Source: Candidatus Proruminimicrobium quisquiliarum
Lineage (GTDB): Bacteria; Elusimicrobiota; Endomicrobiia; Endomicrobiales; Endomicrobiaceae
Direction: 5' to 3'
Length of the DNA stretch: 64,000 bases
Assembly: GCA_018433245.1 (NCBI GenBank)
Contig: JAHDRN010000001.1
Coordinates: forward strand, 248,001-312,000
Part shown: positions 20,939 through 38,713 of the stretch, one piece after another
Layout: the number at the start of each line of letters is the position of its first letter
How positions within the stretch are numbered: the stretch's first letter is position 1
Translations under genes and position numbers: made by a program
The notes under the pieces: model-generated
Database searches by the model: none
Told to the model about the DNA's origin: nothing
The model's input: the letters and a program-made list of their open reading frames with translations, nothing else

Positions 20939-20954
20939 CAATAACGTTTTATGT

Positions 20955-21027
20955 GGGCAGTTAGCTCAGCTGGGAGAGCATCTCCCTTACAAGGAGGAGG
21001 TCGCAGGTTCAATCCCTGCACTGCCCA
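20955..21027 (+). tRNA. tRNA-Val(TAC)
   Basis: Acceptor GGGCAGT/ACTGCCC with discriminator A, D-arm AGCTCAGCTGGGAGAGC, anticodon stem TCTCC/GGAGG (last pair C-G partly wobble) with loop CTTACAA (anticodon TAC), T-arm GCAGGTTCAATCCCTGC. CCA is not encoded. Confidence 0.94.
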
Positions 21028-21076
21028 TTCAGAAATCTCTCCGAAAAAAAGATTAATAAAAATTAGGGGGCTGCAC

Positions 21077-23032: not shown

Positions 23033-24294
23033 TACTTGCGAAATTAATTATCTCGTTTTTTCTTGTAGTTTTTGTTTTTTCTTTCGTTTATCCGCAGGAA
23101 CAAACCGAAAAAAAACTTGGCAGCGGCACCGTTCAGCTTATACAAGATGAAGACGGCATGTGGAGAATAACCGTTAACGGACAGTTATATTTTATCAAAG
23201 GCATTGAATATTCAGCTGATACCGTAGGCAAAAGACCGGACGTCAACGACTGGATGTGGTCGGATTTAAACGACAACGGGAAAATAGACGGACCTTACGA
23301 TTCATGGATTGATTTTAACAGAAACGATTATCAGGATCTTGATGAAAATTCAATCGGTGATTTTGCTTTGCTTAAGGCTATGGGCTGCAATACCATCAGA
23401 ATATACCATTCGGACAATATCAATAAAGAACTTCTCAGAGATTTATACAACAAATACGGAATCAGGGTAATAATGGGCAATTATCTCGGGGCTTATACCA
23501 AAGGAAGCGGAGCCAACTGGGATAAAGGCACTGATTACACCGATGAAGACCAGCTTAAAAATATGCGTGAAAGCGTAAGAAAAATGGTTGAAGAAAATAA
23601 AAACGAGCCTTATATTTTAATGTGGATGCTGGGCAATGAAAACGACGTCGCCGGCGCGCACGATAATTCAACAAAAACAAATACGAACGCCAATTTATAT
23701 CCCGTTGAATTTGCAAAATTTCTTGAACAGACATGCCGGATGATAAAAGAAATGGATCCTAATCATCCCGTGGGTGTTTGTAACGCTACGACGAGATTTG
23801 TAAAATATTATGCAAAATATGCGCCCAGCATAGACGTTTTGGGCTTTAACCAGTATTCCGGACCTTACGGATTCGGAATTTTGTGGAGAAAAATAAAACA
23901 GGAATTTGACAGACCGGTTTTAATTACGGAATACGGCTGCGACGCTTACAATCAAAATAAACAGACTACCGACGAACAGTTTCAAGTCCAATATCACAGA
24001 AAAGCATGGAAAGACATAGAACAAAACGGTTATTGGGGCAAAGGCGTAGGAAATGCAATAGGCGGGTTTGTTTACTGCTGGCTTGACAAATGGTGGCTTA
24101 TAGGTTCAAACAAAGACCACGATACGACGCTTGGAGCGTGGAAAGGGCCAAAAAACGATAATTTTTTTCATGACGAATGGCTTGGCGTTGCCGATCAGGG
24201 AAAAGGAATGCACAGTCCGTTTAAAAGATACCTGAGAAATATATATTTTTTATATCAGGAAGAACTTTGGGATTGGGATCCTGCGCTTTATTAA
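23011..24294 (+). CDS. Secreted glycoside hydrolase, paralog of the preceding gene
   Basis: 427 residues; start overlaps the end of the preceding gene by 22 bp, so translation is probably coupled. Signal peptide in the first 30 residues (IILAKLIISFFLVVFVFSFVYPQE). It lacks the N-terminal helical region of its paralog and begins directly with the beta-sheet entry VNGQLYFIKGIEYSADTVG, then the same double Ca2+-loop-like insert (DLNDNGKIDGPYDSWIDFNRND) and barrel. Catalytic pair E210 (MLGNEND) and E307 (ITEYGCDAY). The pair probably arose by duplication and acts on the same extracellular or periplasmic glycan. GH2 versus another GH-A family is not settled. Confidence 0.78.
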   Translation: MGKIQKIILAKLIISFFLVVFVFSFVYPQEQTEKKLGSGTVQLIQDEDGMWRITVNGQLYFIKGIEYSADTVGKRPDVNDWMWSDLNDNGKIDGPYDSWIDFNRNDYQDLDENSIGDFALLKAMGCNTIRIYHSDNINKELLRDLYNKYGIRVIMGNYLGAYTKGSGANWDKGTDYTDEDQLKNMRESVRKMVEENKNEPYILMWMLGNENDVAGAHDNSTKTNTNANLYPVEFAKFLEQTCRMIKEMDPNHPVGVCNATTRFVKYYAKYAPSIDVLGFNQYSGPYGFGILWRKIKQEFDRPVLITEYGCDAYNQNKQTTDEQFQVQYHRKAWKDIEQNGYWGKGVGNAIGGFVYCWLDKWWLIGSNKDHDTTLGAWKGPKNDNFFHDEWLGVADQGKGMHSPFKRYLRNIYFLYQEELWDWDPALY

Positions 24295-24301
24295 AAAAAT
24301 A

Positions 24302-24351
24302 TTGTTTTCATAACAAGAATATGTTATAATCCGCGTATAAGTTCTTGTTAT
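24302..24351 (+). promoter_or_regulatory. Promoter and operator of the kinase/surface operon
   Basis: TTGTTT (24302-24307), 17-base spacer, TATAAT (24325-24330). The perfect inverted repeat ATAACAAGAA (24310-24319) / TTCTTGTTAT (24342-24351) straddles the -10 box with centres about 32 bp apart, an arrangement suited to repression. It is the only clear promoter seen for the long downstream gene run. Confidence 0.7.
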
Positions 24352-24366
24352 TTCAAGGAGTGGGTA

Positions 24367-27303
24367 ATGTCAGAAAACGAGCAATCTAAGCAAGTGGCAG
24401 GATCTGACGGACTTGATTTCGGTTTATTTATAAACAGACAGTATGTTACCGTAAAGCGTATAGGAGTCGGCGGTTTCGGTACGGTATGGCAGGCTTACGA
24501 TTTCAGTTTAAGAAATTTCATAGCGATAAAAGAACTTTTACCCGAATATGCAGAGCCTAAATTTGTGGAGATGTTCTACAAAGAAGCTCTTATCGCAAAA
24601 AACATAATCCACGACAATATAGTCAGAGTTCAGCATTTTTGGAAAGGGTCAAACGGCACTTTTTACGTAGTTCTTGATTATGTAAGAGGCGTTGATCTTG
24701 AAACTTTAATAAGAAAATGCAATCAGGATAAAGTCGTCATTCCGTGGCAGTTGTCAACTTTAATATGCATTAACGTTTTAAAAGCGATAGATTACGCAAA
24801 CAGAATAGCGAGAGATTCCATTACCGGAAATCCTTACGGAATAGTTTATAGAGATATATCGCCGGGAAACGTTCTGTTGTCTTTTGACGGCAATGTTAAG
24901 CTCAGCGATTTCGGTATCGCAAAAACGGCGGATGAAATAAAAGATTCCATACCGCAAAAAGTCATTACCGGCAAATATCCTTATATGTCGCCCGAACAGA
25001 TTAAGGGTCAATCAGACATAGACCACAGAACCGATATTTTTTCTGTTGCCGTTTTGTTTTATGAAATGCTGACGGGACATCAGCTTTATCAGGGAACTAA
25101 CGAAGAAATAAAAGCGCAGGTTCTCGGCAAAAAATTTGATACCGAAGGACTAAACGCTCCCGGCGTTCCGCACGAAATGTTTGAAGTTATATCCAAAGCT
25201 TTGGAAAAAGACAGAAACGTCCGTTATGAAAAAGCCATAGAAATGTACAGAGATATAAGACGCATTTTAAAAGGCGTTGATACGGATGATTTATCTATTG
25301 AACTTTCGGAATTTGTCGTTAAGATAATGAAAGAAAATGTTATCAAATCCGAAAAATTAATAGAAAACGTCAAATCGCTTACGGTAACTGAGCTTGAACG
25401 CAATTCAAAAATACCTAAAATTCAGTGTGTTGATTTTATAGTCGGTCAGGCAAATACCCAGACTCCCGGAGTAAGTCCGGAACAATCCCAGTATTTTCAG
25501 CAGCAGCCGAGCCAGCCCGGTATGCCGCCGATACAGCAGCCTCAAATTAAAGTTGAAGAAAGAAGACAGCCTTCGTTAAGAGTTGAAGCAAAAGGCAAAA
25601 CGGTTTTTGAGGAAGTAGGCGACTGGTTATTTAAGAAATTTGACGAAATGAAAAAAACGATATTAAAAATCGTTATAGCGGTATTTTTGGCTGTTCTTGT
25701 ACTTGCGGTTGCTGACGTCTTTACGCAGATTACTCCGTTCGGAAAGAAAGTTTATGACAGAATGAATCCTCCCGACGTAGTTATTTCAACGGTTCCGTCC
25801 GGCGCCGTGGTAAGCATGAAAACAAAAGACGGCGAAGTTATATTAAACAATATTTCTTCGGCCGCTGAAATTCCGGTAAGAAAGGTTAAACCCGGCTCAT
25901 ATATTGTTACGGCTTTAAAGGACGGATTCAGACCGGTCCAAAGAGTGGTTCAGATAGAAGGTCTTAAAAAAGCGAAAGGCGGCAGAGAAAAAATAGAAAT
26001 AATGTTTGATTTTGTGCTAAACGTTGAATCTGTTCCGTCGGGAGCAGGCGTTTATGTGGACGGCAATAAGTTCGGCACAACGCCGTGCAAAGCCCAGCTT
26101 TTGGCGGCGCCTCACACAATAAGGCTTGCAATGGAAGGATTTGAAGATTTAGGCTCAAATGCGAAAGAAAGAAAAGAAGGACAGTGCAACGTTGATTTTA
26201 CAATGGCGTCAGTTGATGAGATTTTTGCTGAAGTTGACAAAAGATTTTGGGAATGCGAACTTAAAAATGTTGACGGCGAAAATATTTTCAGCGTTAAAGG
26301 TAATTTGTTTAAGAAAATGAATATAACGTCGGAACCGAAAGGAATGATGATACATGTCCAGGGCGAGTCGCAGCCCAGAGGAAATACTCCTTTAAATACG
26401 TCGTTTAAACTTGGCAATTATAATATAAGATTTTTAGATCCGTCAGCCAGATACGGCGAATACGTCAAAGAAGTCAAAGTTGACGCTCAGTCCGATCCGA
26501 ATGTTTTCGTTAAAATGAATAAGTTTGTTACATTTAAAGTGAGATCAAAAGATAATCCCGGCGATACGTTTATAACAAAGGTAAAAATTTCAAATCAAAA
26601 AATGACGGTTACAAAGGATATTTCAACATCAAAACCTATACGCATTGCATTGCCGGTAGAGACTTTTGACGTTGTTTTTTACGGAGACGCCGAATATAAA
26701 AGCTGTAAAATTTCTAATGTGAATGTTGATAATGTCAGCACGGTTACAGGTGAATTGGAATACGCAAAGGTAGATTTTACGATATCGGTTAAATCTGCCG
26801 CTGATTCACAGCCGCAGGAAGCATATATATGGCAGGGTAAAAAATTATTGGGCAAAACCGAAACCGGAGGTATATTTAATGGAAGTCTTTTGCCCGGCAA
26901 ATATGAATTAAAAATTATTTCAAAAGGTTTTGAAGATCAGGTAATAAATATGGAGTTGACTGCCAAAGGCAAAAATTCAATGGATGTGTTTGTGCTTGAA
27001 CCTCAGCCTGAAGTCGCTTCATCTACAGGCACCGCAACAACAACAGCCGAATCGGCTTCAAACAGCGTTTTAGTTGATAATTTTAAAAAAACACGGAAAG
27101 AAGAGCAGCCAAAACCAAAACGCGAAACTAAAAAAGAAGATACGTCCAGGAAACCCGCAAAGCAGGAATCGAGTCAGGAACAGCAGAATTCTTCAGTTGA
27201 AGAGCAGCAGGTTGTGGTTTGTATGTATTGCGGATATGTTAATACTGTGCCTAAAGGAAAGAGATTAAGATTTTGTGTAAATTGCGCAAAGCCACTGAAG
27301 TAA
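24367..27303 (+). CDS. Transmembrane Ser/Thr protein kinase with PEGA domains
   Basis: 978 residues; CAAGGAG precedes the ATG. Hanks-type kinase domain at about 20-300: Gly loop VGGFGTVW, K55 in IAIKE, catalytic D163 in YRDISPGNV, DFG at 181-183, MSPEQIKG. A Pro/Gln-rich linker is followed by one membrane span at about 430-455 (KIVIAVFLAVLVLAVADVF). The extracytoplasmic part has PEGA-type repeats (STVPSGAVVSM..., VESVPSGAGVYVDGNKFGTTP..., TSEPKGMMIHVQGE...), which bind surface or wall ligands. The C-terminus is Glu/Gln-rich and ends in a four-Cys zinc ribbon (CMYCGY...FCVNCAKP), odd on the outer side of a membrane. It heads the operon with the FHA and PP2C partners. Confidence 0.92.
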   Translation: MSENEQSKQVAGSDGLDFGLFINRQYVTVKRIGVGGFGTVWQAYDFSLRNFIAIKELLPEYAEPKFVEMFYKEALIAKNIIHDNIVRVQHFWKGSNGTFYVVLDYVRGVDLETLIRKCNQDKVVIPWQLSTLICINVLKAIDYANRIARDSITGNPYGIVYRDISPGNVLLSFDGNVKLSDFGIAKTADEIKDSIPQKVITGKYPYMSPEQIKGQSDIDHRTDIFSVAVLFYEMLTGHQLYQGTNEEIKAQVLGKKFDTEGLNAPGVPHEMFEVISKALEKDRNVRYEKAIEMYRDIRRILKGVDTDDLSIELSEFVVKIMKENVIKSEKLIENVKSLTVTELERNSKIPKIQCVDFIVGQANTQTPGVSPEQSQYFQQQPSQPGMPPIQQPQIKVEERRQPSLRVEAKGKTVFEEVGDWLFKKFDEMKKTILKIVIAVFLAVLVLAVADVFTQITPFGKKVYDRMNPPDVVISTVPSGAVVSMKTKDGEVILNNISSAAEIPVRKVKPGSYIVTALKDGFRPVQRVVQIEGLKKAKGGREKIEIMFDFVLNVESVPSGAGVYVDGNKFGTTPCKAQLLAAPHTIRLAMEGFEDLGSNAKERKEGQCNVDFTMASVDEIFAEVDKRFWECELKNVDGENIFSVKGNLFKKMNITSEPKGMMIHVQGESQPRGNTPLNTSFKLGNYNIRFLDPSARYGEYVKEVKVDAQSDPNVFVKMNKFVTFKVRSKDNPGDTFITKVKISNQKMTVTKDISTSKPIRIALPVETFDVVFYGDAEYKSCKISNVNVDNVSTVTGELEYAKVDFTISVKSAADSQPQEAYIWQGKKLLGKTETGGIFNGSLLPGKYELKIISKGFEDQVINMELTAKGKNSMDVFVLEPQPEVASSTGTATTTAESASNSVLVDNFKKTRKEEQPKPKRETKKEDTSRKPAKQESSQEQQNSSVEEQQVVVCMYCGYVNTVPKGKRLRFCVNCAKPLK

Positions 27304-27319
27304 ATTTATGGAGAATACA

Positions 27320-29290
27320 ATGAAAAAATTATTGTTTTTTTTGTCTTTGTTATTGGTTTGCGGAGTACAAATTTATGCCGATGTTCCTAAAAAGTTAAAC
27401 ATTCAGGGAAAATTAACTTCTGATTCGGGACAAGTTTTGGCGGAAAAAGCTTTTTCCGCCGCTTTACATCTCAGACCGGCCGGTTCTTCCGTATCTGATA
27501 ATTTGATTGATACAAAAACAGGCAAAACTGACAGTAACGGATTGTATAATGCCAATTTTGACGTAACGAATTTTAATTATTCCGAAGGAGCCGATTTCAA
27601 AGTTGTCATTACGGTTGAATCTCAGGTAATATCAACGGCTTGGTCTTCAATTGCTTCTAACCCGTATACTTTTTATGCGTCAACAGCCTCATATGCAAAA
27701 ATTCTGGATCCCAACCAAACCGATAAATTGGTAGACGGGAACTTTAATCCTTCAGTTATATATAAAATAAACGTAACCACGGCGGTTGCGGTTTCCACGG
27801 CTTCATATACGCCCGGAAACGCTTACGTATGGGGAATAGGCACTAACGGAGTTCAGCAATGGACTAATGATATACAGGTTTCAACAGCGGCATATGCTTT
27901 AAATGCTGGAACGGCGACATACGCAGTAGAAATGTCAGAAGTTCCGGTTTTGCCTGTAGGAGAGGCTCAAGTTTGGACGGTAACAAACAACGGCGGAACT
28001 ATTTCTCAATCATGGGATACAGTTGTAAACGGTTTAAGAGCCGGAGACGGATTAAAACTTACCGGAAAAACTATAAGCGTTTCAGCAGGTTCTGCGATTG
28101 GATTTGATGGTTCAAGCAATCTTATTGTTTCAGATACCGGAATTACACCGGCAAAACTGCAGCAAGGCGGAGGCGTTCTATATAATATTTTGGTTTCAAC
28201 GGCAAATAATTTAAATGAAAATTTTAAATTAGCTGATACTAATTTTACGACAAATCACGTATATACGGCAACGACATCATATGCGACGACAGCAGGTACG
28301 GCCGTCACGGCAGCAACGGCAAATGCTTTAAGCGGTTCTTTTAAACTTGTTGATAGCAATTTTACGACAAATCACGTATATACGGCAACGACATCATATG
28401 CGACGACAGCAGGTACGTCCGTCACGGCAGCAACGGCAAATGCTTTAAGCGGTTCTTTTAAACTTGTTGATAGCAATTTTACGACAAATCACGTATATAC
28501 GACAACGGCAGCATATGCAACAGGAGCCGGTATGGCCGTCACGGCAGCAACGGCAGATGCTTTAAGCGGTTCTTTTAAACTTGTTGATAGCAATTTTACG
28601 ACAAATCACGTATATACGACAACGGCAGCATATGCGACAGGAGCCGGTACGGCAAGTACAGTAGTTAACGGAGCCATAACTGCAGATAAAATAGGACCGG
28701 GTGCTGTGACGTTAGCAAAAATAGCGGCTGATGCGGTAGACGCAACAAAAATTGCAAATAATGCAGTGACAGAATCAAAAATAGCAGCAAATTCAATAGA
28801 TACTGATCATTTTAAATATACAGGCGGAACATATTCAACAAAATATAATATCAAGGTTTCATCCGCCGAATATGCAGATGTAGCCTATTATGCGGAAACA
28901 GGTGGTGCTGACCTTGCAGAAATATATGCTTCAACTGAATTGTTGACCCCAGGTGATGTTGTATCGATTGATACAACAAAAGACAATGCAATAGTAAAAA
29001 CAAAGACGGCTGAAGATACTTTAGTGGCGGGCGTTATTTCAACAAAGCCCGGTTTATTGATGAATAAAACCGAGAAAGGATATGAATTGGCGCTTGTCGG
29101 AAAAGTTCCTACAAAAGTTTGTAATGAAGGCGGCAGCATAAAAAGAGGAGATATGTTGGTTTCGGCTTCAATGGCAGGTTATGCAAAGAAAGCAGGTGAT
29201 AATCCTAAAACAGGGACCGTTATAGGAAAAGCGCTTGAGAATTTTGATTCCGTGACAGGAACAATTTTGGTATTGGTGAATTTACAATGA
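27320..29290 (+). CDS. Secreted fibre-like repeat protein with C-terminal domain
   Basis: 656 residues; the ATG at 27320 is preferred over 27308 because GGAG (27310-27313) fits only the former. Signal peptide MKKLLFFLSLLLVCGVQIYA. An N-terminal beta domain (KLNIQGKLTSDSGQVLAEKAF...) leads into Ala/Thr/Tyr-rich segments and four near-identical 39-residue repeats (SFKLVDSNFTTNHVYT..., about 303-445). A stretch of KI-type short repeats follows (GAVTLAKIAADAVDATKIANN), as in phage tail or surface fibres. The last 150 residues (GGADLAEIY...PGDVVSID...VAGVISTKPGLLM...GTVIGKALE...ILVLVNL) match a C-terminal domain typical of such fibres. Likely displayed at the cell surface. Confidence 0.7.
   Translation: MKKLLFFLSLLLVCGVQIYADVPKKLNIQGKLTSDSGQVLAEKAFSAALHLRPAGSSVSDNLIDTKTGKTDSNGLYNANFDVTNFNYSEGADFKVVITVESQVISTAWSSIASNPYTFYASTASYAKILDPNQTDKLVDGNFNPSVIYKINVTTAVAVSTASYTPGNAYVWGIGTNGVQQWTNDIQVSTAAYALNAGTATYAVEMSEVPVLPVGEAQVWTVTNNGGTISQSWDTVVNGLRAGDGLKLTGKTISVSAGSAIGFDGSSNLIVSDTGITPAKLQQGGGVLYNILVSTANNLNENFKLADTNFTTNHVYTATTSYATTAGTAVTAATANALSGSFKLVDSNFTTNHVYTATTSYATTAGTSVTAATANALSGSFKLVDSNFTTNHVYTTTAAYATGAGMAVTAATADALSGSFKLVDSNFTTNHVYTTTAAYATGAGTASTVVNGAITADKIGPGAVTLAKIAADAVDATKIANNAVTESKIAANSIDTDHFKYTGGTYSTKYNIKVSSAEYADVAYYAETGGADLAEIYASTELLTPGDVVSIDTTKDNAIVKTKTAEDTLVAGVISTKPGLLMNKTEKGYELALVGKVPTKVCNEGGSIKRGDMLVSASMAGYAKKAGDNPKTGTVIGKALENFDSVTGTILVLVNLQ
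28226..28655 (+). repeat. 117-bp tandem repeat inside the fibre-like gene
   Basis: Unit starts at 28226, 28343, 28460 and 28577 (period exactly 117 bp, 39 codons). Copies 2-4 share long identical DNA such as AAACTTGTTGATAGCAATTT; copy 1 is slightly diverged and the last copy fades after about 78 bp. Copy number could vary by slippage or recombination. Confidence 0.9.
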
Positions 29291-30468
29291 AAAAAATAAA
29301 ATTCATTTTAATAACTGTACTTCTGTTTATTGTCGCAGTTTTCGGGCTCTCGGAAGCTGCAAAGAATTTTTCGGCCATTGCCGCAGGGCAGTCGTCCGGA
29401 GATACGTCTTCGGCTAAAGCTTATGCTTTTACGGGTCAGTCTGCGCTTATATTTTCAGAAGCAAGAACTAAAGACTTGGTTTTACGGGCGGGAATGCCTT
29501 CTGTCATAACAAAAGCGCCGAATGTAAATATAACGTTTACGAATTTAACAGGATCTGAAACATTTCCTACTCAGACAGTAACAGTTCAGGTTAGAGTAGA
29601 AAGCACAAACGGATACAATATCAACAAGGTCAGATATGCTGTTGCTGAAGGACAGAATGCAGATTTCGGCGATCAGATTGATTATACAGTTACGCCGAGT
29701 ACTGCCGTTATGTTTACTCAGGAAATTAATTTCAGCAAAGGGCAGTCAGTAAATAAGGTTTACGTTTATGCACAGGATGATTCTACAAATGTTTTCGGCA
29801 ACGACACACAAATTATTGTAAATACGGCAGGAAGTTTGGGAGAGGTTTCATTTATATCGCCTGATTCAGTTTCCGGATTTTCAACGTTAAATCCGTTGAT
29901 AAAAACAACAATGTTTTCTCTCGGCGTTTCAAGCGCCACGGTAAGATTATACAACGGGCCTGCCGCAAGCGGCGTTCCGATATATGACGTTCAGGTAACT
30001 AACGAAATAGTCAACGCTGCCGGTCAAATAGAATACTATAATTCGGAATTGATGCCTGATAATGAAAATCTTACTCCTAATTCGCAATATACGCTTGCAG
30101 TTTATTTTGATAATACTTATCCGTCGCCTGTTACGATAACATTTACGGCTCTTTCGGGCGGAGTTGCAAATATTTTAACTTATCCGTCTCCGTTTAATCC
30201 TAACAATAATGAAAAAATTAAAATAAGATATTTACTTGCAAGCAATGGACAACAAGTTACAATTAATTTGTACAATAAAGCCGGTAAAATTGTAAGAAAA
30301 TTGGTAACCTCAGTCAGCAGAAATGCCGGCACTAATGAGGAAGAGTGGGATGGAAGAAATTATGCGGGAGAAATTCTCGCAACTGGTCCATATATCTGTG
30401 AAATTATAACAAGAGGTGCAGACGGAGAAGCTAGAAGATATACTGCACTTGCTATAGTGGGTAAATAA
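29287..30468 (+). CDS. Exported protein with FlgD-Ig-like C-terminal domain
   Basis: 393 residues; start overlaps the preceding stop by four bases (ATGA). Signal peptide in the first 25 residues (FILITVLLFIVAVFGLSEAA). Middle part of beta-rich, Ig-like segments (NVNITFTNLTGSETFPTQTVTVQVRVEST...). The last 100 residues (LTYPSPFNPNNNEKIKIRYLL...VTINLYNKAGKIVRKL...EEEWDGRNYAGEILATGPYICEI) are the FlgD Ig-like fold, which in several phyla serves as a C-terminal sorting or attachment module of secreted surface proteins. Located between the fibre-like protein and a PorV/PorQ-like protein, suggesting surface delivery. Confidence 0.75.
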   Translation: MKKIKFILITVLLFIVAVFGLSEAAKNFSAIAAGQSSGDTSSAKAYAFTGQSALIFSEARTKDLVLRAGMPSVITKAPNVNITFTNLTGSETFPTQTVTVQVRVESTNGYNINKVRYAVAEGQNADFGDQIDYTVTPSTAVMFTQEINFSKGQSVNKVYVYAQDDSTNVFGNDTQIIVNTAGSLGEVSFISPDSVSGFSTLNPLIKTTMFSLGVSSATVRLYNGPAASGVPIYDVQVTNEIVNAAGQIEYYNSELMPDNENLTPNSQYTLAVYFDNTYPSPVTITFTALSGGVANILTYPSPFNPNNNEKIKIRYLLASNGQQVTINLYNKAGKIVRKLVTSVSRNAGTNEEEWDGRNYAGEILATGPYICEIITRGADGEARRYTALAIVGK

Positions 30469-30470
30469 CT

Positions 30471-31487
30471 ATGATAAAAATAAAAAAATTATTTATTGCA
30501 GTACAGATTGCATTAATTGTTTTTTGTTCTTCTAATCTTTTCGCAGGTGTTGATTTGGCTCCGTTTCTAAAAAAAGGAATAGGTGCGAAGGCAATTGCTA
30601 TGGGCGGTGCATTTACATCTGTAGCCGATGACCCGAGTGCCATTTATTGGAATCCGGCAGGATTAACAAAAATACAAATGTACTCAATTTCTACTATGGG
30701 GGCTATGGGATCATCAGATAAATACCCGGGCTTAAAGGATATTATCCCGACACACCAGTTTTTTGCGGCAACGCTTCCGCTTGCAAATGTTACCGATATT
30801 TTCGGAAAAGCCGTATTCGGTATCGGTTATATTTCTTCAACAATGGGTGGTATCCAACATAACAGAGATGTTCCTAATCATTTGGATAGTCATACAGATA
30901 ATGCAATCTACTTATCAGCAGGATATCCAGTTTTTACAGGCTATAACAGTTTAAGTGTTGGAGCTTCTCTTAAATATATTACTTATGATTTTTCAGATAT
31001 AACTAGTGCTGGAAGCGGTATGGATTTAGATGCCGGTGTTATTTATTCAATGGGGATGTTGAATTTTGGCGCAATGATAACAAAAGGTGTTGAAATAGGT
31101 AATGATAAAGCGCCGATGACGACAAAATTTGGGGTATCTAATAAATTTAAAGTCGGTAAAAAGTTTCATATATTAGGTGCAATGGATCTTATTCAAAGAC
31201 AGCAGGAACCTTTGACTACGAATATAGGCGCCGAATTTGGAATAAGAGAACCTTTAACGTTTGATAATTTCGGAATTAATGCCGTAAATTTAAGATTTGG
31301 TGTGGAAGGTTATGCTATAGAAAACAGATACGATATTTCTTCGGCGTTAAATGAGACAGCCGGATATAATTGTGGATTGGGAATAGACATATATGTGGCA
31401 AAAACATATTTGCAGTTTGACATTGCATTATTAAGCGGGAATATGTTTGAACAAAGCACAAAATTTTCGGTTAATTTTTATTTCTAG
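30471..31487 (+). CDS. PorV/PorQ-family outer-membrane protein
   Basis: 338 residues, two bases after the preceding stop. Signal peptide (IKKLFIAVQIALIVFCSSNLFA), then the hallmark FLKKGIGAKAIAMGGAFTSVADDPSAIYWNPAGLTK. Beta-strand-rich remainder ending in aromatic-terminal KFSVNFYF, as expected for an outer-membrane barrel. The family is related to FadL-type barrels and includes PorV/PorQ, which shuttle or attach type IX secretion substrates. No other type IX component is visible in the window, so the exact role is open; neighbours with FlgD-Ig tails make an export or assembly role attractive. Confidence 0.82.
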   Translation: MIKIKKLFIAVQIALIVFCSSNLFAGVDLAPFLKKGIGAKAIAMGGAFTSVADDPSAIYWNPAGLTKIQMYSISTMGAMGSSDKYPGLKDIIPTHQFFAATLPLANVTDIFGKAVFGIGYISSTMGGIQHNRDVPNHLDSHTDNAIYLSAGYPVFTGYNSLSVGASLKYITYDFSDITSAGSGMDLDAGVIYSMGMLNFGAMITKGVEIGNDKAPMTTKFGVSNKFKVGKKFHILGAMDLIQRQQEPLTTNIGAEFGIREPLTFDNFGINAVNLRFGVEGYAIENRYDISSALNETAGYNCGLGIDIYVAKTYLQFDIALLSGNMFEQSTKFSVNFYF

Positions 31488-31497
31488 AGGTTAAAAA

Positions 31498-32505
31498 ATG
31501 AATAAAAAACACATTAGTATTGTCTTATCCTTGACTGTTATGTTGCTTAACTGTACGCCTTTGTTTTCTGCGGATAAAAAAGATGTTGCCGATCCGGTTC
31601 TTAAAGAAGTAATAAATGAACTTTCTCCGAAAATGCCCCGTTTTATAGATAAATACGGACCGAGTATTTTTGTTTCCGACGAACAGGTTACAAGAGCCGC
31701 TTTATTGCTGGCTCTTTACGAATATGACAAAAGAAATTCGGCAGCAAGTCTGGCAGCAAATTTCGCTTCAAAAAAAGACTTTGATCTGTTAAGCACAAGA
31801 TTATCAGTGATTGAAAAATCAGGCACCTCAGGCAAATCGTCAGCTGCGGCAGGCTCAAGCGTTGATATGATAAAACTTATGAATGATTTAGATCCTAATA
31901 TGCCTATGCTGTTAGATAATAATCTTGCCAATTCAAAAGTATTTAAAGATTTGCAGAAAAAAGTTGATATGATGGGGATGACGGCTTCTTCGGCTTCAGG
32001 ACAGCAGTCGGTTCCAAACGTCGCAATGGTAAATATGAAAACGGATATAAGCAATTTAAACAAGAGAATAGAAGCTTTTGAAATGAGTTCCAAAAATTCA
32101 GGCTCTAATATAAAACCATCAAAAGAACTGGATGATTTAAAACTTTCTTTTGCGCAAATTCAAAAAAGTTATGTAAATATCGCAAAAAGGATTGATGAAT
32201 TGGAAAACAGACCCGTAATGACAGCTTCTTCAAAAGACGGGAAAATAAGCGATGCGCAGATAGAAGCGTTAAACGCTAAGATAAACTCAATAAAAAATAC
32301 GGTTTCAGATATTCCTACGAATAATTACGTGAAATCGGAAATAAATAAAACGTCGGCAGACGTAAAAAGGCTTGAACAGAAAATAAACGAGCTTGAAAGT
32401 TCTGGTGTTTCGTCAGGCGCAGGCGAATCAAAATCGTCAACCGGTACTTTTGCTAAAATAAGTTTGGGATTAACAATGGTGGCGGCATTATTTATAGCAA
32501 GATAG
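31498..32505 (+). CDS. Envelope coiled-coil protein, unknown
   Basis: 335 residues; AGAGG precedes the ATG. Signal peptide with possible lipobox-like Cys (SLTVMLLNCTPLFSA), then a conserved-looking head (LKEVINELSPKMPRFIDKYGPSIFVSDEQVTRAALLLALYEYD). It continues with a Ser/Ala-rich linker and coiled coil at about 190-310 (DLNKRIEAFE, IAKRIDELENRP, VKRLEQKINELESS). A C-terminal hydrophobic segment (KISLGLTMVAALFIAR) could insert in a membrane. The two-ended anchoring and coiled coil suggest a periplasmic tether or spacer. No family recognised. Placed between the outer-membrane PorV-like protein and the FHA protein. Confidence 0.6.
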   Translation: MNKKHISIVLSLTVMLLNCTPLFSADKKDVADPVLKEVINELSPKMPRFIDKYGPSIFVSDEQVTRAALLLALYEYDKRNSAASLAANFASKKDFDLLSTRLSVIEKSGTSGKSSAAAGSSVDMIKLMNDLDPNMPMLLDNNLANSKVFKDLQKKVDMMGMTASSASGQQSVPNVAMVNMKTDISNLNKRIEAFEMSSKNSGSNIKPSKELDDLKLSFAQIQKSYVNIAKRIDELENRPVMTASSKDGKISDAQIEALNAKINSIKNTVSDIPTNNYVKSEINKTSADVKRLEQKINELESSGVSSGAGESKSSTGTFAKISLGLTMVAALFIAR

Positions 32506-32536
32506 TTTTTTTAATAATCATAACGGGAGTTTTTAT

Positions 32537-34753
32537 ATGCCGAGGATATTGGTAAAGAAAAGAGAAGAAATAATTTCTGAATATGTGGCAAGAAAAACAA
32601 AAGTAAGAGTTTTAATAGGAAGTAAAAAAGGCAACGATATAGTAATAGCCGATAAAAACGTATCCGAACAGCACTGCGTAGTTTCTTTGGAAGCTTCCGG
32701 ACAATACTCCGTCAAAGATTTGAATACTATTGCCGGTACGCAGCTTAATTCCAGACTTATATCTGAATCGCCTCTTAAATTCGGAGATGAAATTCTGCTC
32801 GGCGACTATAAAATCGTTTTTTTAGATGATATGGCCGCAAATAAATACGACGTTGTGGTTCAGCAGTATTATCTTATAGGCATTTACGGCAAATTTTACG
32901 GCAAAAAATATTTTATAAAACAGCAGGGCGATACTTTCATCGGCAGAGAGAATCTCTCTCCCAGAGGAATTGAAAACGACATAGTCCTTTCAGGAGACAT
33001 GACTGTTTCAAAAGGCCACGCAAAAATTACGGCGCACGGCGACAAACATACAATAACCGATATAGGAAGCACAGGAGGCGTTGCGGTAAACGGCGCTAAA
33101 GTCGGACAGCTTAATACAATACAATTGTCTTTAAACGATGAAATATCAATAGGCAGAACTATTTTCAGATTTGTTGATTATTTCAGCGAGAATTACGCGC
33201 TGCCGTCAAAGCAAAAAGTAGTTATAATGAAGGTTTTTAATTATTTTCAGATTGCCGTTACGGCAATAGCTTTAATTTTAGGCTGTCTTTCAATCTGGAA
33301 CGGTTACAGCGGAATTTCAATATTAAACGATAATCAGGGCAAAGTTAATTTGTCTATAAGCCAGGAATGGAATAAAACGATGCCGTTAAGCTCGCCGGAA
33401 TCTTATGACGTAACGGCGACGCCAGTAATAGCAAGTCTTAACGGTTCGCAAAATAATGTTGCTATGCTGACAAGCTCGGGATTGCTGAATGCGTGGGATT
33501 TTAAAACCGGAGATCCGTTATGGAAACCGTTTGAAATTTATAATTCGGGCGTTGCTTCGTTGGTTTCAGCAGATATAAATAATGACGGATATGACGATAT
33601 AATATCGGTATCCGAAACGTCAATGGTTTATATTGTTGACGGACAAACCGGAAATATTATAAGAAAAGAAATACTCGGCGGCGATATTTCAAAATTAACG
33701 CCTGTTGTATGCGATTTGGATTCCGACGGTAAAAAAGATATTGTTGTTGCTTCGGAAGACGGAACGCTGCATTTTATGTATTCTCCCGGATTTGATACCA
33801 CATATGCAAAACAAACGGAATTTATAGACGGGCCGATATACGGCAGCCCTATAATAATGTCAAGAAAGAATTTTTCGCCTTTTGTCGTAATAGCCAATTA
33901 TGACAGCAAAGTTTATTTCCTTGACGGCAAAACAAGAACTAAAAAAATAGTTAATCTTTTGGAATTGTCCGGCAAGGCCCATCTTGTAGCCGGAGCTCCG
34001 GCTTTGGGCGATATAAACGGAGACGGCATTGACGAAGTTATAGTTCAGTCAAGCGTTCCCCAGTACATATCGGCGATAGACACAACAAAATTTTCCGTTA
34101 TATGGACTTATTTTGTTGAACCGACTCCGCCTGGCAATATGAAAAATACAACCCCGATAGTGGCTGATTTCAGCGGAGACAAAATCGGAGACGTCGCTTT
34201 TGTTTCGGCCAACGGCACAATTCAGATATTAAAAGGGAATACATCATTTCCTACGGGCGAATTACTTTGGAATTTTACAATACCCGGAGCCGGAAAAATT
34301 ATTTCTTCTCCGTCGGCTTATGATTTTGACAAAGACGGAATTCCTGATTTGGTCTTCGGAACGGAAGACGGGCGCATAATAATCGCAAAAAGCAATACGA
34401 AAAGGAAAGAAATAGAAATACTTGCCGATTTAAAAGCAAGCAATTCCGCAATAACCTCAACGCCGCTGATTGCGGATTTAAACGGCGATAAATATATTGA
34501 AATTTTATATACGAATGTTCAGGATGCCATTCAGGTTTTGAACACAAACTGCAAAACTTTAAAGAATTTAAAAATATGGCCGATGTTTTTATGCAACGCC
34601 GAACATAACGCAAAATTTTCTTTAAAACAGTATAAAGATAAATATGTTAAAATGTTCGGGTTTGGAGTCGTTTTGTTTATTCTTATATTGTTTTTAAAGG
34701 TCAGAGGAATTATTAAAAAAGCAAAGAAAAAAGTTAAGGTTATATATCTATGA
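32537..34753 (+). CDS. Double-FHA membrane protein with extracytoplasmic beta-propeller
   Basis: 738 residues; GGGAG upstream of the ATG. Two FHA domains face the cytoplasm: about 20-100 (VLIGSKKGNDIVIADKNVSEQHC) and 125-220 (TFIGRENL...DMTVSKGHAKITAHG...DIGSTGGVAVNG), which bind phosphothreonine. A membrane span lies at about 232-255 (FQIAVTAIALILGCLSIW). Residues about 280-690 form a propeller of FG-GAP/PQQ-like blades with DxDxDG-type Ca2+ loops (DINNDGYDDI, DLDSDGKKDIVV, DINGDGIDEVIV, DFDKDGIPDLVF, DLNGDKYIEILY). A second span lies near the end (VVLFILILFLKV). It would couple kinase output to an outside sensor or scaffold. Confidence 0.88.
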   Translation: MPRILVKKREEIISEYVARKTKVRVLIGSKKGNDIVIADKNVSEQHCVVSLEASGQYSVKDLNTIAGTQLNSRLISESPLKFGDEILLGDYKIVFLDDMAANKYDVVVQQYYLIGIYGKFYGKKYFIKQQGDTFIGRENLSPRGIENDIVLSGDMTVSKGHAKITAHGDKHTITDIGSTGGVAVNGAKVGQLNTIQLSLNDEISIGRTIFRFVDYFSENYALPSKQKVVIMKVFNYFQIAVTAIALILGCLSIWNGYSGISILNDNQGKVNLSISQEWNKTMPLSSPESYDVTATPVIASLNGSQNNVAMLTSSGLLNAWDFKTGDPLWKPFEIYNSGVASLVSADINNDGYDDIISVSETSMVYIVDGQTGNIIRKEILGGDISKLTPVVCDLDSDGKKDIVVASEDGTLHFMYSPGFDTTYAKQTEFIDGPIYGSPIIMSRKNFSPFVVIANYDSKVYFLDGKTRTKKIVNLLELSGKAHLVAGAPALGDINGDGIDEVIVQSSVPQYISAIDTTKFSVIWTYFVEPTPPGNMKNTTPIVADFSGDKIGDVAFVSANGTIQILKGNTSFPTGELLWNFTIPGAGKIISSPSAYDFDKDGIPDLVFGTEDGRIIIAKSNTKRKEIEILADLKASNSAITSTPLIADLNGDKYIEILYTNVQDAIQVLNTNCKTLKNLKIWPMFLCNAEHNAKFSLKQYKDKYVKMFGFGVVLFILILFLKVRGIIKKAKKKVKVIYL

Positions 34754-36177
34754 TTTTATTGAGCGGATACTGCACTGATAAGGGATTGTTGAGAACTGAA
34801 AATCAGGATTCTTACGGAATTTCAGAAGAAACGAATTTGTTTTTTGTATGCGACGGAATGGGCGGCGGAGTAGCGGGAGATTTTGCCAGCCGTTACGCCA
34901 GAGACATTATACTGACGGCCTATAAACGCCTTAACGACGCAGAAATTATTGACGTCGTTGACAATTATAAAGAATTTGAAATAGATATATCGCGGGCTGT
35001 TGCCGCCGTAAGACTGGCAAACAGAGGTCTTTATAACCTGCAGATAAAATATCCTCTTTTAGCCGGCATGGGAACTACTTTTACCGGCGTGGTCTTTGAA
35101 AAAGAAAAAAATTTGCTTCATATTTATAATGTCGGAGACAGCAGAATATACAGAATAAGAAACGGCAATATAAAACTTTTGACTGCAGACCATTCAAAAA
35201 TCAAAGAACTTATAGATGACGGAAAAATGACGGAAGAAGAATCAAAAACCGCGGAAATCCAAAGCATGATTACAAGAGCTCTCGGTACGGCTCCGACAGT
35301 TAAAGTTGATTATAAATCCGAAATAGTAAAATCCGGAGATATTTATGTTCTTTGTTCGGACGGGCTTAACGGAGAATTGGAAGATTATACGATAAGAGAT
35401 ATAGTTCTAACTCATAAGCCGAATGCCGTTTCAATTTCAAACGAACTTGTTTTGGCGGCAAACAATTCCGGAGGCAGGGATAATACGACAGTCATAACGT
35501 TATACGCCCAGGATGAAATTAATTTAACTTCCGTCAAAGAAGTGTATCCGCATGAAGACATAGTAACCTTTGAATCCGAAATAAGCAGGGAAACCGAAAA
35601 AGAGGATGTTTTAATTCAAAAACTTGAAAAGCAAACCGGCGTTGATATTCCGAAACTGGCAAAGAAAAAAAATATTTTTACCAGTCCGTTTTTTTTAAGC
35701 ATTTTCTTGATATTATTTGCGGTGGGAATTTTCTTTTTATATTCTCATTTTATTAATATAGAAGAGAAAAAGAGTATAGTTGAGCTTACAGGAAGTATTT
35801 CCGGCATAAATATTGAGATAAAGACTCTTGCCGATTCTAAAATTCAGGAAATACGCAAAATACACGACAGAATTTTCAGAATGCAGGTTATACAGGAATC
35901 TTTGAAAGATAAAAATTTCTTGATTCCTATGGCTAATGTTACTATAATGCTTGAAAAAGACGGACAAAATAAATTTATGGGGTTGTCAAGCGCGGCGCCG
36001 TTGGAGATTAAACTTCCGAACGCTCAGTATAAAATGACTCTGACTTATCCGGAATATAAAATTTTAGATAAAGATTTTAAATTAAAGGATTTTATATTTG
36101 TGAATTTTGAAAATTCAAGTTTTCTTTCAAATTTAACGGTTATTATGATTCCAAAAGATATAGGGGATATTTCATGA
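34750..36177 (+). CDS. PP2C-type Ser/Thr phosphatase with membrane span
   Basis: 475 residues; overlaps the FHA gene by four bases. PP2C domain at about 5-250 with metal-binding motifs FVCDGMGGGVAGD, AGMGTTFTGVVF, NVGDSRIYRI, LCSDGLNGEL and GGRDNTTVI. It should reverse phosphorylation by the linked kinase. After an acidic linker a membrane span (FFLSIFLILFAVGIFFLYSHF, about 315-335) leads to an extracytoplasmic domain of about 140 residues with a PEGA-like end (ANVTIMLEKDGQNKFMGLSSAAPLEIKLPNAQYKMTLTYPEYK). The membrane anchoring mirrors that of the kinase. Confidence 0.93.
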   Translation: MILLSGYCTDKGLLRTENQDSYGISEETNLFFVCDGMGGGVAGDFASRYARDIILTAYKRLNDAEIIDVVDNYKEFEIDISRAVAAVRLANRGLYNLQIKYPLLAGMGTTFTGVVFEKEKNLLHIYNVGDSRIYRIRNGNIKLLTADHSKIKELIDDGKMTEEESKTAEIQSMITRALGTAPTVKVDYKSEIVKSGDIYVLCSDGLNGELEDYTIRDIVLTHKPNAVSISNELVLAANNSGGRDNTTVITLYAQDEINLTSVKEVYPHEDIVTFESEISRETEKEDVLIQKLEKQTGVDIPKLAKKKNIFTSPFFLSIFLILFAVGIFFLYSHFINIEEKKSIVELTGSISGINIEIKTLADSKIQEIRKIHDRIFRMQVIQESLKDKNFLIPMANVTIMLEKDGQNKFMGLSSAAPLEIKLPNAQYKMTLTYPEYKILDKDFKLKDFIFVNFENSSFLSNLTVIMIPKDIGDIS

Positions 36178-36551
36178 ACAATAACGGACAGAGAAAGATA
36201 TTGATAATAGATGACGATAAAGTTTTTCTTGATTCAATAGGAGAGATTTTCAGAATTCATAATTTTGACGTTTTTGAGGCGCAGACGGCCGAAACCGGAT
36301 ATGAGGCTCTCGTTGATATTGTTCCTGATGTTGTTCTTTTGGATATAAATCTTCCGGATAAAAACGGTTTTGATGTTTTAAAAACAATAAGAGCAAGCAA
36401 AAATTTTTCGGATATGATAGTTATTTTGATAACCGGCGATTCGGCCGTAGACATAGACAATGCTTTTGACAGTGGAGCCGATGACTGCGTATTTAAGCCG
36501 ATAGACGTTGAAAAATTTATATTAAGGATAGAAAAATTATTAAAAAAATGA
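36174..36551 (+). CDS. Single-domain response regulator
   Basis: 125 residues, a receiver domain with no output domain. Acidic pocket D13-D15, phospho-acceptor D57 in VVLLDINLP, switch Thr in ILITGD, Lys in VFKPID. It overlaps both neighbours by four bases, so it is made in step with the PP2C phosphatase and the PorV/TPR protein. No histidine kinase is in the window. It may take its phosphate from a distant kinase and act by protein contact, linking two-component and Ser/Thr signalling. Confidence 0.92.
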   Translation: MNNNGQRKILIIDDDKVFLDSIGEIFRIHNFDVFEAQTAETGYEALVDIVPDVVLLDINLPDKNGFDVLKTIRASKNFSDMIVILITGDSAVDIDNAFDSGADDCVFKPIDVEKFILRIEKLLKK

Positions 36552-38713
36552 AAAAAATAACATTGCCGGTTTTTATATTATTGTTTGCAGTAACTGTTTT
36601 TGCTCATGCTGATTTTACAAGCGGAGATTTATCTGTATTAAACCCGGATCCTTCTTCGGAAGCGGCAGGGGCAAGCATTCTTGCCATGTCGCCTAATATT
36701 GCGGGATTTTTTAACAGTCCGGCGAATAATTTCAGGAATTTTTCAAAAGAATTTCAGGTTTCTTATATTCTTTTCGGACAAAACATACGCGGTGAAAACG
36801 CGGCATTTTTGCTGCCCGTAAAAAATATCGGCAATTTTTCATTTATGGTCTCGCATTTTGAATACGGCGATACTAATCCGAATCTGGATTTTAAAAGTTC
36901 GGTTATGTTTGCTTTGAATTATGTTTATCCTTTAGCGCAAAAATATCCGGTATACAGCGAAAAAGGAGCTGTTGGATTGACGCTAAAAGCATACCAGCTT
37001 AAAAATAAACTGCAGGATGAAAGCGATTTTATTTTATACAGCTGCGATTTAGGTCTTATTCATTCTCTTGCTTTTATTGATTCCGATTTGACCGGAGGGC
37101 TGGCTTTAAAAAATTTCGGCAACAATATTGAATTTAACGGCGTTACGCAAAAACAGGCTTACAATATTGATGCTGCGGCAAGATATTTTCTGTCAGACAA
37201 AGGAAAAGTTTCAATTATGGCGGATATGATAAAAAATTCAGAAGCCGATGAAATAGGATTTTCAGGCGGACTTGAAACTTTTCCCATATATCCTTTATCC
37301 GTAAGAATCGGATGGAGAGATTACAGGGATGATTTTAACAGAGGCGTTACGGCGGGATTTGCATTGAATTTCAGCCGTGTGAATATAGGATATGCGTTTA
37401 CCGATTTATTGGACGATAACAGCGACAAGCATACATTTACTCTGGGTTTTTATTTCGGAGCTGTTTCAGACCCCGATAAAGCATACGGGCATTATCTTGA
37501 ATATCATTTAAAAAAAGCCCGGCAGTCTTATGATGACAAGGATTATATTTCGGCAAGAAGACAGTTTGAGGATATACTTGCCATTTATCCGGACGAACCT
37601 ACAGCAAGACGCTATATAAAACTTCTGTCGGAAGATTTGGAACAGGTTGACCAAAATACAGCAGGAAATATAAATAAATATCTTGCAAAAGCCGAAGTAG
37701 CTCTTATGAAAAATAATCTTATAAAAGCGCAACAGTATTATTCAAAAGCTTTACAGATTGATAACGATAATCAGGAAGCGGCGGAGGGTCTTAAAAAAGT
37801 TGAAGACCAGATAAGAGAACGCGATATTTTTAAAAACAGAAAAAAATATGAAAAAGAAATAACGCAGTCGTGGCTTCTTGCAATGAAATATTACGATAAA
37901 GGCGATTTTATTTACGCAAAAGAAGAATTAAACAAAATAATTGAAATTGACCCGGAAAACGCCGGAGCATTGCAGTATCTTGACAACATTCAGAAAAAAA
38001 TTGACAGAGTCAACGTAATACAGTCTCACAATGTTTTTAAACAGGGTTTGGATGCTTATGAAAAAGGCGATTACGAGAGCGCATTGTCTTATTTTAACGC
38101 GGCTTACATAGCAAATCCGCAAAGAGAAGATATAAAGGAATACATCAATCAGTGCAATATCAAAATAAACGCCGCCGCGACGGTTAAAACTCAGCCGGAT
38201 TCGTTAAATGCGGCGGAAAGTTCTTCGTTGTCAGGGTCAGCCAAATCAAATAAACAAGTTAAAGAAGAAATGAAAAAATTATATAATTCGGCATTGGAAC
38301 AGTTCAGCCGTGAAAATTATCCGGAGGCTCTTAAAAAATTTGAAATTTTGAAAAATACGGCGGCGAAATATAAATTTTATGATTACCGCGAACAAACTAA
38401 TTTATATATTGCAAAATCACGTAACGCGATAGCCGACGATTTGTACAAACAGGGCGAGGATCTTGAGTTGAGAGAAGAATTTGAACAGGCGTACGCTAAA
38501 TATAAAGAGTCATTGACCTACGTCAAAAACCATAAAGACTCGCTCAAAGGCTTGCAAAAACTGAATTCAATAATAGCTCAGCAGTACTATGACCAGGGAT
38601 TAAAAGCTTTTTCTGCCGGCAACCGTGAAAACGCCATAAAACTTTTGGAAGAATCTTTAAAATACGACGGAAACAAAATAGAAGCCAAAAGAGCTTTGGA
38701 AAGAATAAAATAA
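36548..38713 (+). CDS. PorV/PorQ-like barrel fused to TPR domain
   Basis: 721 residues. Signal peptide (KKITLPVFILLFAVTVFAHA). Residues about 20-310 resemble the PorV/PorQ barrel (EAAGASILAMSPNIAGFFNSPANNF, ending VNIGYAFTDLLDDNSDKHTFTLGFYFGA). Then about 400 residues of TPR and TPR-like repeats (ARRQFEDILAIYPDEPTARRYI, AQQYYSKALQIDNDNQEAAEGL, AKEELNKIIEIDPENAGALQYL, ALSYFNAAYIANPQREDIKEYI, AIKLLEESLKYDGNKIEAKRAL). The fusion would put a TPR scaffold in the periplasm attached to an outer-membrane barrel. Last gene of the 4-nt-overlap block with the FHA, PP2C and receiver genes. Confidence 0.8.
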   Translation: MKKITLPVFILLFAVTVFAHADFTSGDLSVLNPDPSSEAAGASILAMSPNIAGFFNSPANNFRNFSKEFQVSYILFGQNIRGENAAFLLPVKNIGNFSFMVSHFEYGDTNPNLDFKSSVMFALNYVYPLAQKYPVYSEKGAVGLTLKAYQLKNKLQDESDFILYSCDLGLIHSLAFIDSDLTGGLALKNFGNNIEFNGVTQKQAYNIDAAARYFLSDKGKVSIMADMIKNSEADEIGFSGGLETFPIYPLSVRIGWRDYRDDFNRGVTAGFALNFSRVNIGYAFTDLLDDNSDKHTFTLGFYFGAVSDPDKAYGHYLEYHLKKARQSYDDKDYISARRQFEDILAIYPDEPTARRYIKLLSEDLEQVDQNTAGNINKYLAKAEVALMKNNLIKAQQYYSKALQIDNDNQEAAEGLKKVEDQIRERDIFKNRKKYEKEITQSWLLAMKYYDKGDFIYAKEELNKIIEIDPENAGALQYLDNIQKKIDRVNVIQSHNVFKQGLDAYEKGDYESALSYFNAAYIANPQREDIKEYINQCNIKINAAATVKTQPDSLNAAESSSLSGSAKSNKQVKEEMKKLYNSALEQFSRENYPEALKKFEILKNTAAKYKFYDYREQTNLYIAKSRNAIADDLYKQGEDLELREEFEQAYAKYKESLTYVKNHKDSLKGLQKLNSIIAQQYYDQGLKAFSAGNRENAIKLLEESLKYDGNKIEAKRALERIK

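Follow-up and report, generated by a model that had tools for sequence, protein, structure and literature searches.

The type IX secretion system (T9SS) of Bacteroidota and other FCB phyla, of which SprA/Sov, the PorV and PorP/SprF shuttles and CTD cargo are the parts relevant here, has been described as having its genes confined to the FCB group (PMC11285876), and in F. johnsoniae cargo and shuttle are encoded as gene pairs (PMC12618676). In the PpkA/PppA/Fha pathway of the type VI secretion system (T6SS), binding of phosphothreonine by the FHA protein activates secretion, as reported for A. tumefaciens (PMC3953482). Further points of reference are the PASTA-type PknB/Stp1 systems, and phage tail fibres and preneck appendages with Peptidase_G2.

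A nine-gene block of an Endomicrobiaceae genome (Elusimicrobiota, 1.94 Mb), located in the 64,000-nucleotide stretch analysed here (the window), shares features with all of these. As in T9SS, a SprA homologue is present in the genome as well as phylum-wide, and PorV-family barrels adjoin FlgD-Ig or type A CTD-like proteins, neighbours that resemble the F. johnsoniae pairs. However, Elusimicrobiota lie outside the FCB group, GldM and PorU were undetected and GldL only sub-threshold (in searches where no control responded), and the candidate cargo/shuttle pair is embedded in a Ser/Thr kinase operon. Similar to the T6SS pathway, a membrane Ser/Thr kinase, a PP2C phosphatase and an FHA protein (genes 1, 7 and 6) are encoded together with envelope proteins, yet the FHA protein carries a transmembrane FG-GAP propeller, the kinase has a PEGA sensor, PorV-type outer-membrane proteins share the operon, and T6SS core genes (TssB/C, TssL/M, Hcp) are not among the nine. 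The kinase and the phosphatase match PknB-type (1e-56) and Stp1-type (8.2e-60) models of NCBIfam, both below the equivalog cut-offs, but PEGA repeats replace PASTA and the operon includes outer-membrane partners. The likeness to phage fibres concerns the C-terminal domain of gene 2 (weak Peptidase_G2), whereas gene 2 is cellular, equipped with a signal peptide, and present as a single copy in a chromosomal operon in which no phage genes were found. All of the parts come from known families. Of their combination in this operon, and of SprA in Elusimicrobiota, we found no description in the open-access literature. Our favored reading, for which belief and doubt weigh about equally, is a lineage-specific Ser/Thr phospho-relay of PpkA/PppA/Fha-like build that controls a T9SS-like cargo/shuttle pair and a surface fibre.

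Gene content and predicted topology of the locus

Nine same-strand ORFs are arranged head to tail at 24367-38713 (+ strand), in the content and order of the original prediction, although the first ATG, at 24367, is found 65 bp past the start at 24302 given there. The spacings from gene 1 to gene 9 are 4, -4, 2, 10, 31, -4, -4 and -4 bp. Upstream, the neighbouring gene ends at 24294, leaving a gap of 72 bp, while 3' of gene 9 galT follows after 3 bp and glgA after a further 2 bp, so that the transcription unit probably extends past gene 9. A promoter scan recovered 71 promoter-like sites against 58.4 +/- 9.4 expected, which is background level, and the single promoter first proposed for the nine genes is therefore not demonstrated. 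Directly upstream, at 20951-24294, are two adjoining glycoside-hydrolase-like genes, judged from sequence, the first of which begins, as listed, at a tRNA-Val gene (20954-21028) and hence has its true start further downstream. The sister genome G001 shares the pair, and in other members of the family trpS-scpA-scpB-like genes occupy this position.

Gene 1 (24367..27303, +) encodes a transmembrane Ser/Thr kinase (Pfam Pkinase E=1.6e-38, PEGA 3.6e-28) with an RD-type kinase domain (YRD..N, DFG) that is predicted to be cytoplasmic, one TM helix at aa 431-449 by hydropathy, PEGA repeats on the extracytoplasmic side (26017-26202 and 26317-26523) and, at the C-terminus, a zinc-ribbon-like CxxC...CxxC tail (27210-27300). 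The tail is conserved in most orthologues and by predicted topology lies outside the inner membrane, an odd placement. Gene 6 (32537..34753, +) is a double-FHA FG-GAP beta-propeller protein of the inner membrane (Pfam, two FHA domains 1.9e-28, FG-GAP repeats 2.5e-22), for which hydropathy predicts two cytoplasmic FHA domains, a TM helix, an extracytoplasmic propeller and a second TM helix. Arg137, Ser158, His161 and Asn185 of FHA2 are invariant in an 11-sequence alignment, as expected for phosphothreonine binding, while FHA1 has Ser or Lys where the binding Arg is expected, and thus may not bind phosphopeptide. Gene 7 (34750..36177, +) encodes a PP2C phosphatase (Pfam PP2C_2 2.6e-8) that has catalytic motifs and, by hydropathy, a single TM helix as well as an extracytoplasmic tail. 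Across the copies recovered, the YRD/HRD and DFG motifs of the kinase are present and most family motifs of the PP2C are carried, the few pattern misses being substitutions or cut sequences. Judged by motif, the kinase, the PP2C and FHA2 look active, and the single TM helices are predicted to put both the catalytic domains and the reader on the cytoplasmic side.

Gene 8 (36174..36551, +) is a stand-alone response-regulator receiver (Pfam Response_reg 9.9e-23), present in two copies in order-level relatives and in G058, a genome of another class. Gene 9 (36548..38713, +) combines a signal peptide, a PorV/PorQ-like beta-rich N-terminus and a long TPR array. Its earlier designation as a PorV-TPR fusion holds for the TPR half (Pfam TPR 3.9e-15), but the barrel half is weaker than stated, with a PorQ match of only 5e-4 (NCBIfam); in the structure prediction (mean pLDDT 62.7) the TPR part is good and the barrel reaches about 30-60.

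Between the kinase and the FHA-propeller gene lie the genes of the surface proteins, and signal peptides are predicted by hydropathy for genes 2, 3, 4 and 5 as well as for gene 9. Gene 3 (29287..30468, +) encodes an exported protein with a C-terminal FlgD-Ig domain (30211-30396; Pfam, 8e-11, above cut-off), a candidate T9SS-type cargo. The window protein does not itself reach the T9SS sorting-domain models, being below cut-off for CHU_C (0.0028) and Por_Secre_tail (0.011) in Pfam, while its orthologues in G039 and G058 pass TIGR04183, the T9SS type A sorting domain, at 29.5 and 24.6 bits against 23. Gene 4 (30471..31487, +) is an outer-membrane barrel of the PorV/PorQ family (NCBIfam PorV_fam 1.2e-15, 57.9 bits against a cut-off of 90) and a candidate shuttle or anchor for gene 3; at least one other PorV-family copy in the same genome is above the PorV_fam cut-off. 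Pairs of FlgD-Ig followed by PorV were also detected at other loci in five genomes examined. At least three further FlgD-Ig genes of the window's own genome (L095, L099, L104) are each followed by a PorV-family gene, forming candidate cargo/shuttle pairs. In another genome, a FlgD-Ig domain (G038:C22 ~72011-72193, L092) is located inside an open frame with a reported length of 24,396 aa, a giant predicted protein.

Gene 5 (31498..32505, +) comprises a signal peptide, a coiled coil and a hydrophobic C-terminal anchor, and is a candidate envelope tether. The coiled coil varies from 214 to 810 aa among orthologues, the anchor is conserved (...ISLGLTMVAALFIAR), and a convincing Pfam family was not found. 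The Omp-alpha tether of Thermotoga has an SLH head. For gene 5 such a head was not confirmed, as no SLH is among the Pfam matches listed for the window protein and the G058 orthologue is sub-threshold (E=0.025).

Gene 2 (27308..29290, +) encodes an exported, fibre-like protein with a signal peptide, an N-terminal exported-protein domain, a repetitive middle and a conserved C-terminal domain; the window protein has no Pfam match. The stalk holds 3.7 copies of a 117-bp (39-aa) tandem repeat (28222..28653, +), and the middle is the fast-diverging part of a protein that overall is 54% identical to that of the sister genome. The last 128 residues (aa 533-660; 28904..29287, +), on the other hand, display 80-86% identity across several genera of the family. 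This domain matches an unnamed PHROG (6.9e-12) and a tail fibre PHROG (2.2e-7), is 34-37% identical to proteins of Campylobacter, Agrobacterium and Sinorhizobium phages, and gives a weak Peptidase_G2 match in 7 of 15 orthologues (best E=7e-4), though not in the window protein; its structure prediction reached a pLDDT of 34. Within the order each genome has a single such domain, and wherever the surroundings are readable it lies in this operon.

A signalling core and a surface module

A search with the FHA-propeller protein recovered relatives in Endomicrobiaceae and Elusimicrobia MAGs, including a 92% match on an Endomicrobiaceae STB_19 contig, and at E<=1e-60 the corresponding profile detected 41 of 341 phylum genomes. 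Of these, 36 belong to Endomicrobiaceae and four more to the rest of the order Endomicrobiales, with G058 as the sole member of another class. Across 29 operon loci the order is kinase, fibre, FlgD-Ig, PorV, coil, FHA-propeller, PP2C, receiver and PorV-TPR, in the family commonly followed by galT and glgA, and it is kept at identities as low as 31-47% in other families and the one other class. The G058 locus reads kinase, FlgD-Ig, PorV, coil, FHA-propeller, PP2C and two receivers. Compared to the sister genome, dN/dS is 0.03-0.15 in eight genes and 0.37 in the fibre gene. The conserved gene order together with the low dN/dS rules out chance as an explanation. The lack of conservation in relatives that would have refuted the original prediction was not observed, and its expectation of a conserved, undescribed envelope operon that joins phospho-signalling with surface and outer-membrane proteins is borne out.

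After the two receivers, the G058 operon has an FHA-GAF-nucleotide cyclase (L067:655-2265, - strand), a possible second-messenger link. Moreover, order- and class-level relatives (G040, G039, G041, G045 and G037; L071-L075) have a separate cluster of kinase, PP2C and single-FHA genes, possibly an ancestral trio.

The loci divide into two modules: a signalling core of kinase, FHA-propeller and PP2C, usually with receiver and PorV-TPR, and a surface module. Genes 2-5 are absent and the core is kept in genomes G017, G027 and G035 of genus g7 (some g7 copies of the FHA-propeller gene, in G298, G315 and G326, have stop codons), only the coil of genes 2-5 remains in G029 and G036, and G003 retains only kinase, FHA-propeller and PP2C. 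Among loci where this part is intact, 19 carry both FlgD-Ig and PorV, 7 carry neither, and none has one alone (Fisher p 1.5e-6, which is too optimistic owing to shared ancestry). The block is thus not one indivisible complex, since several lineages keep the core but have no surface module, and FlgD-Ig and PorV are gained or lost together.

The same pattern of loss makes plausible another explanation, namely that the core is a general circuit for envelope stress or cell-wall sensing in the manner of PASTA-type kinases, with the surface genes as inserted, co-transcribed passengers. Congruent with such a role, ftsX, a murein-hydrolase-like gene and ctpA adjoin the locus. However, many genera and a second class share one placement of the surface module, between kinase and FHA-propeller, which would not be expected of random co-transcription, and PorV-TPR, a member of the core, is itself an outer-membrane part. 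We regard this explanation as a tangible, but clearly less probable one than control of a cargo/shuttle pair and a fibre by the phospho-relay.

A SprA homologue and a probable type IX-like export route

A search for type IX genes, as recommended with the original prediction, yielded a SprA/Sov homologue in the same genome, a 1783-aa ORF (G000:C21:384662-390013, L076:8663-14014, - strand) that scores 150.6 bits with TIGR04189 (E=3.4e-44; equivalog cut-off 200). Using a profile of 11 SprA homologues, only F. johnsoniae SprA structures were matched in the PDB (E=1.1e-30). The homologue is present in 50 of 60 relatives sampled across Elusimicrobiota and is thereby much more widespread than the operon, and specific co-occurrence of the two was consequently rejected. 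G010, a single contig of 1,588,979 bp, has SprA without the FHA-propeller gene. Within the family, FlgD-Ig (p=3e-4) and PorV (p=3e-5) matches are fewer in genomes that lack an intact SprA, an association confounded by shared ancestry and genome reduction. G004 (99% complete, 280 contigs) has a FlgD-Ig/PorV pair and lacks a SprA match, and in G003 (99% complete) neither SprA nor FlgD-Ig was detected. The 1.1 Mb genome G023, of g7 and without the operon, holds only SprA fragments with stop codons (L086).

Among the matches listed for the window's own genome there is none to GldM, nor did any control genome give one, and none to Peptidase_C25 for PorU, where again no control responded. For GldL, one sub-threshold match was recovered there (G000:C31:149120-149470, 24.7 bits against 68.3) and none in the other relatives searched, also with no control responding; it is too weak to use. 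The export route thus appears incomplete by T9SS standards, and we do not claim a complete T9SS, rather a route that would work like T9SS at the outer membrane, with the surface proteins of the block probably leaving the cell via a type IX-like pore.

Proposed mechanism and biological meaning

Linking phosphorylation in the cytoplasm to the cell surface, we propose that two inner-membrane-anchored enzymes with sensor-like extracytoplasmic tails, the PEGA kinase and the PP2C, would determine whether a cytoplasmic target carries phosphothreonine, a state that FHA2 of the propeller protein would read. The propeller may then pass this state across the inner membrane, probably to the periplasmic TPR array of the PorV-TPR protein, with the receiver possibly taking part, and as the output, surface proteins would be assembled or retained. 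The FlgD-Ig protein would exit via the SprA-like translocon of the genome, handled by its dedicated PorV partner, and the tail-fibre-like protein would be displayed together with it, while the coiled-coil protein would tether the assembly in the envelope. The full circuit of the original prediction, in which phosphorylation controls export, is retained here as a proposal, as it is conserved co-location that links signalling and surface genes. As the core also occurs without the surface module, the ancestral core output may be something else. A bolder version, where in Endomicrobiales an inner-membrane complex of kinase and FHA-propeller, coupled to the outer-membrane PorV-TPR protein, substitutes for the GldLM motor and gates or drives the SprA-based route of Elusimicrobiota, a phylum beyond the FCB group, resulting in phosphorylation-controlled, type IX-like display of a phage-fibre-derived protein, appears improbable to us.

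It is similarly unlikely that the product of the genes is an organelle for adhesion or attachment, with phosphorylation acting on assembly of its base and SprA serving other substrates only, for although the single-copy, phage-tail-fibre-like domain, the repeats and fast evolution of the fibre middle (as expected of a surface-exposed binding part) and the wider occurrence of SprA would all suit such a structure, the operon has no ATPase, pilin, usher or baseplate component, and the FlgD-Ig/PorV pair resembles cargo plus shuttle.

If phospho-relay control of the pair and the fibre is true, the block would be an unusual case of Ser/Thr phosphorylation in one operon with a type IX-style cargo/shuttle pair. 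A type IX-like pore is, in the open-access literature, previously unrecognised in Elusimicrobiota, and the occurrence of a SprA homologue across the sampled phylum contradicts the stated absence of T9SS genes outside FCB phyla (PMC11285876). The Elusimicrobiota SprA provides an outgroup for asking which parts of T9SS came first, and the cultured isolate E. proavitum seems to offer a natural comparison, being operon-negative and SprA-positive. For the uncultured Endomicrobia of gut and sediment, the block may be a switch that links the cell interior to display on the outside.
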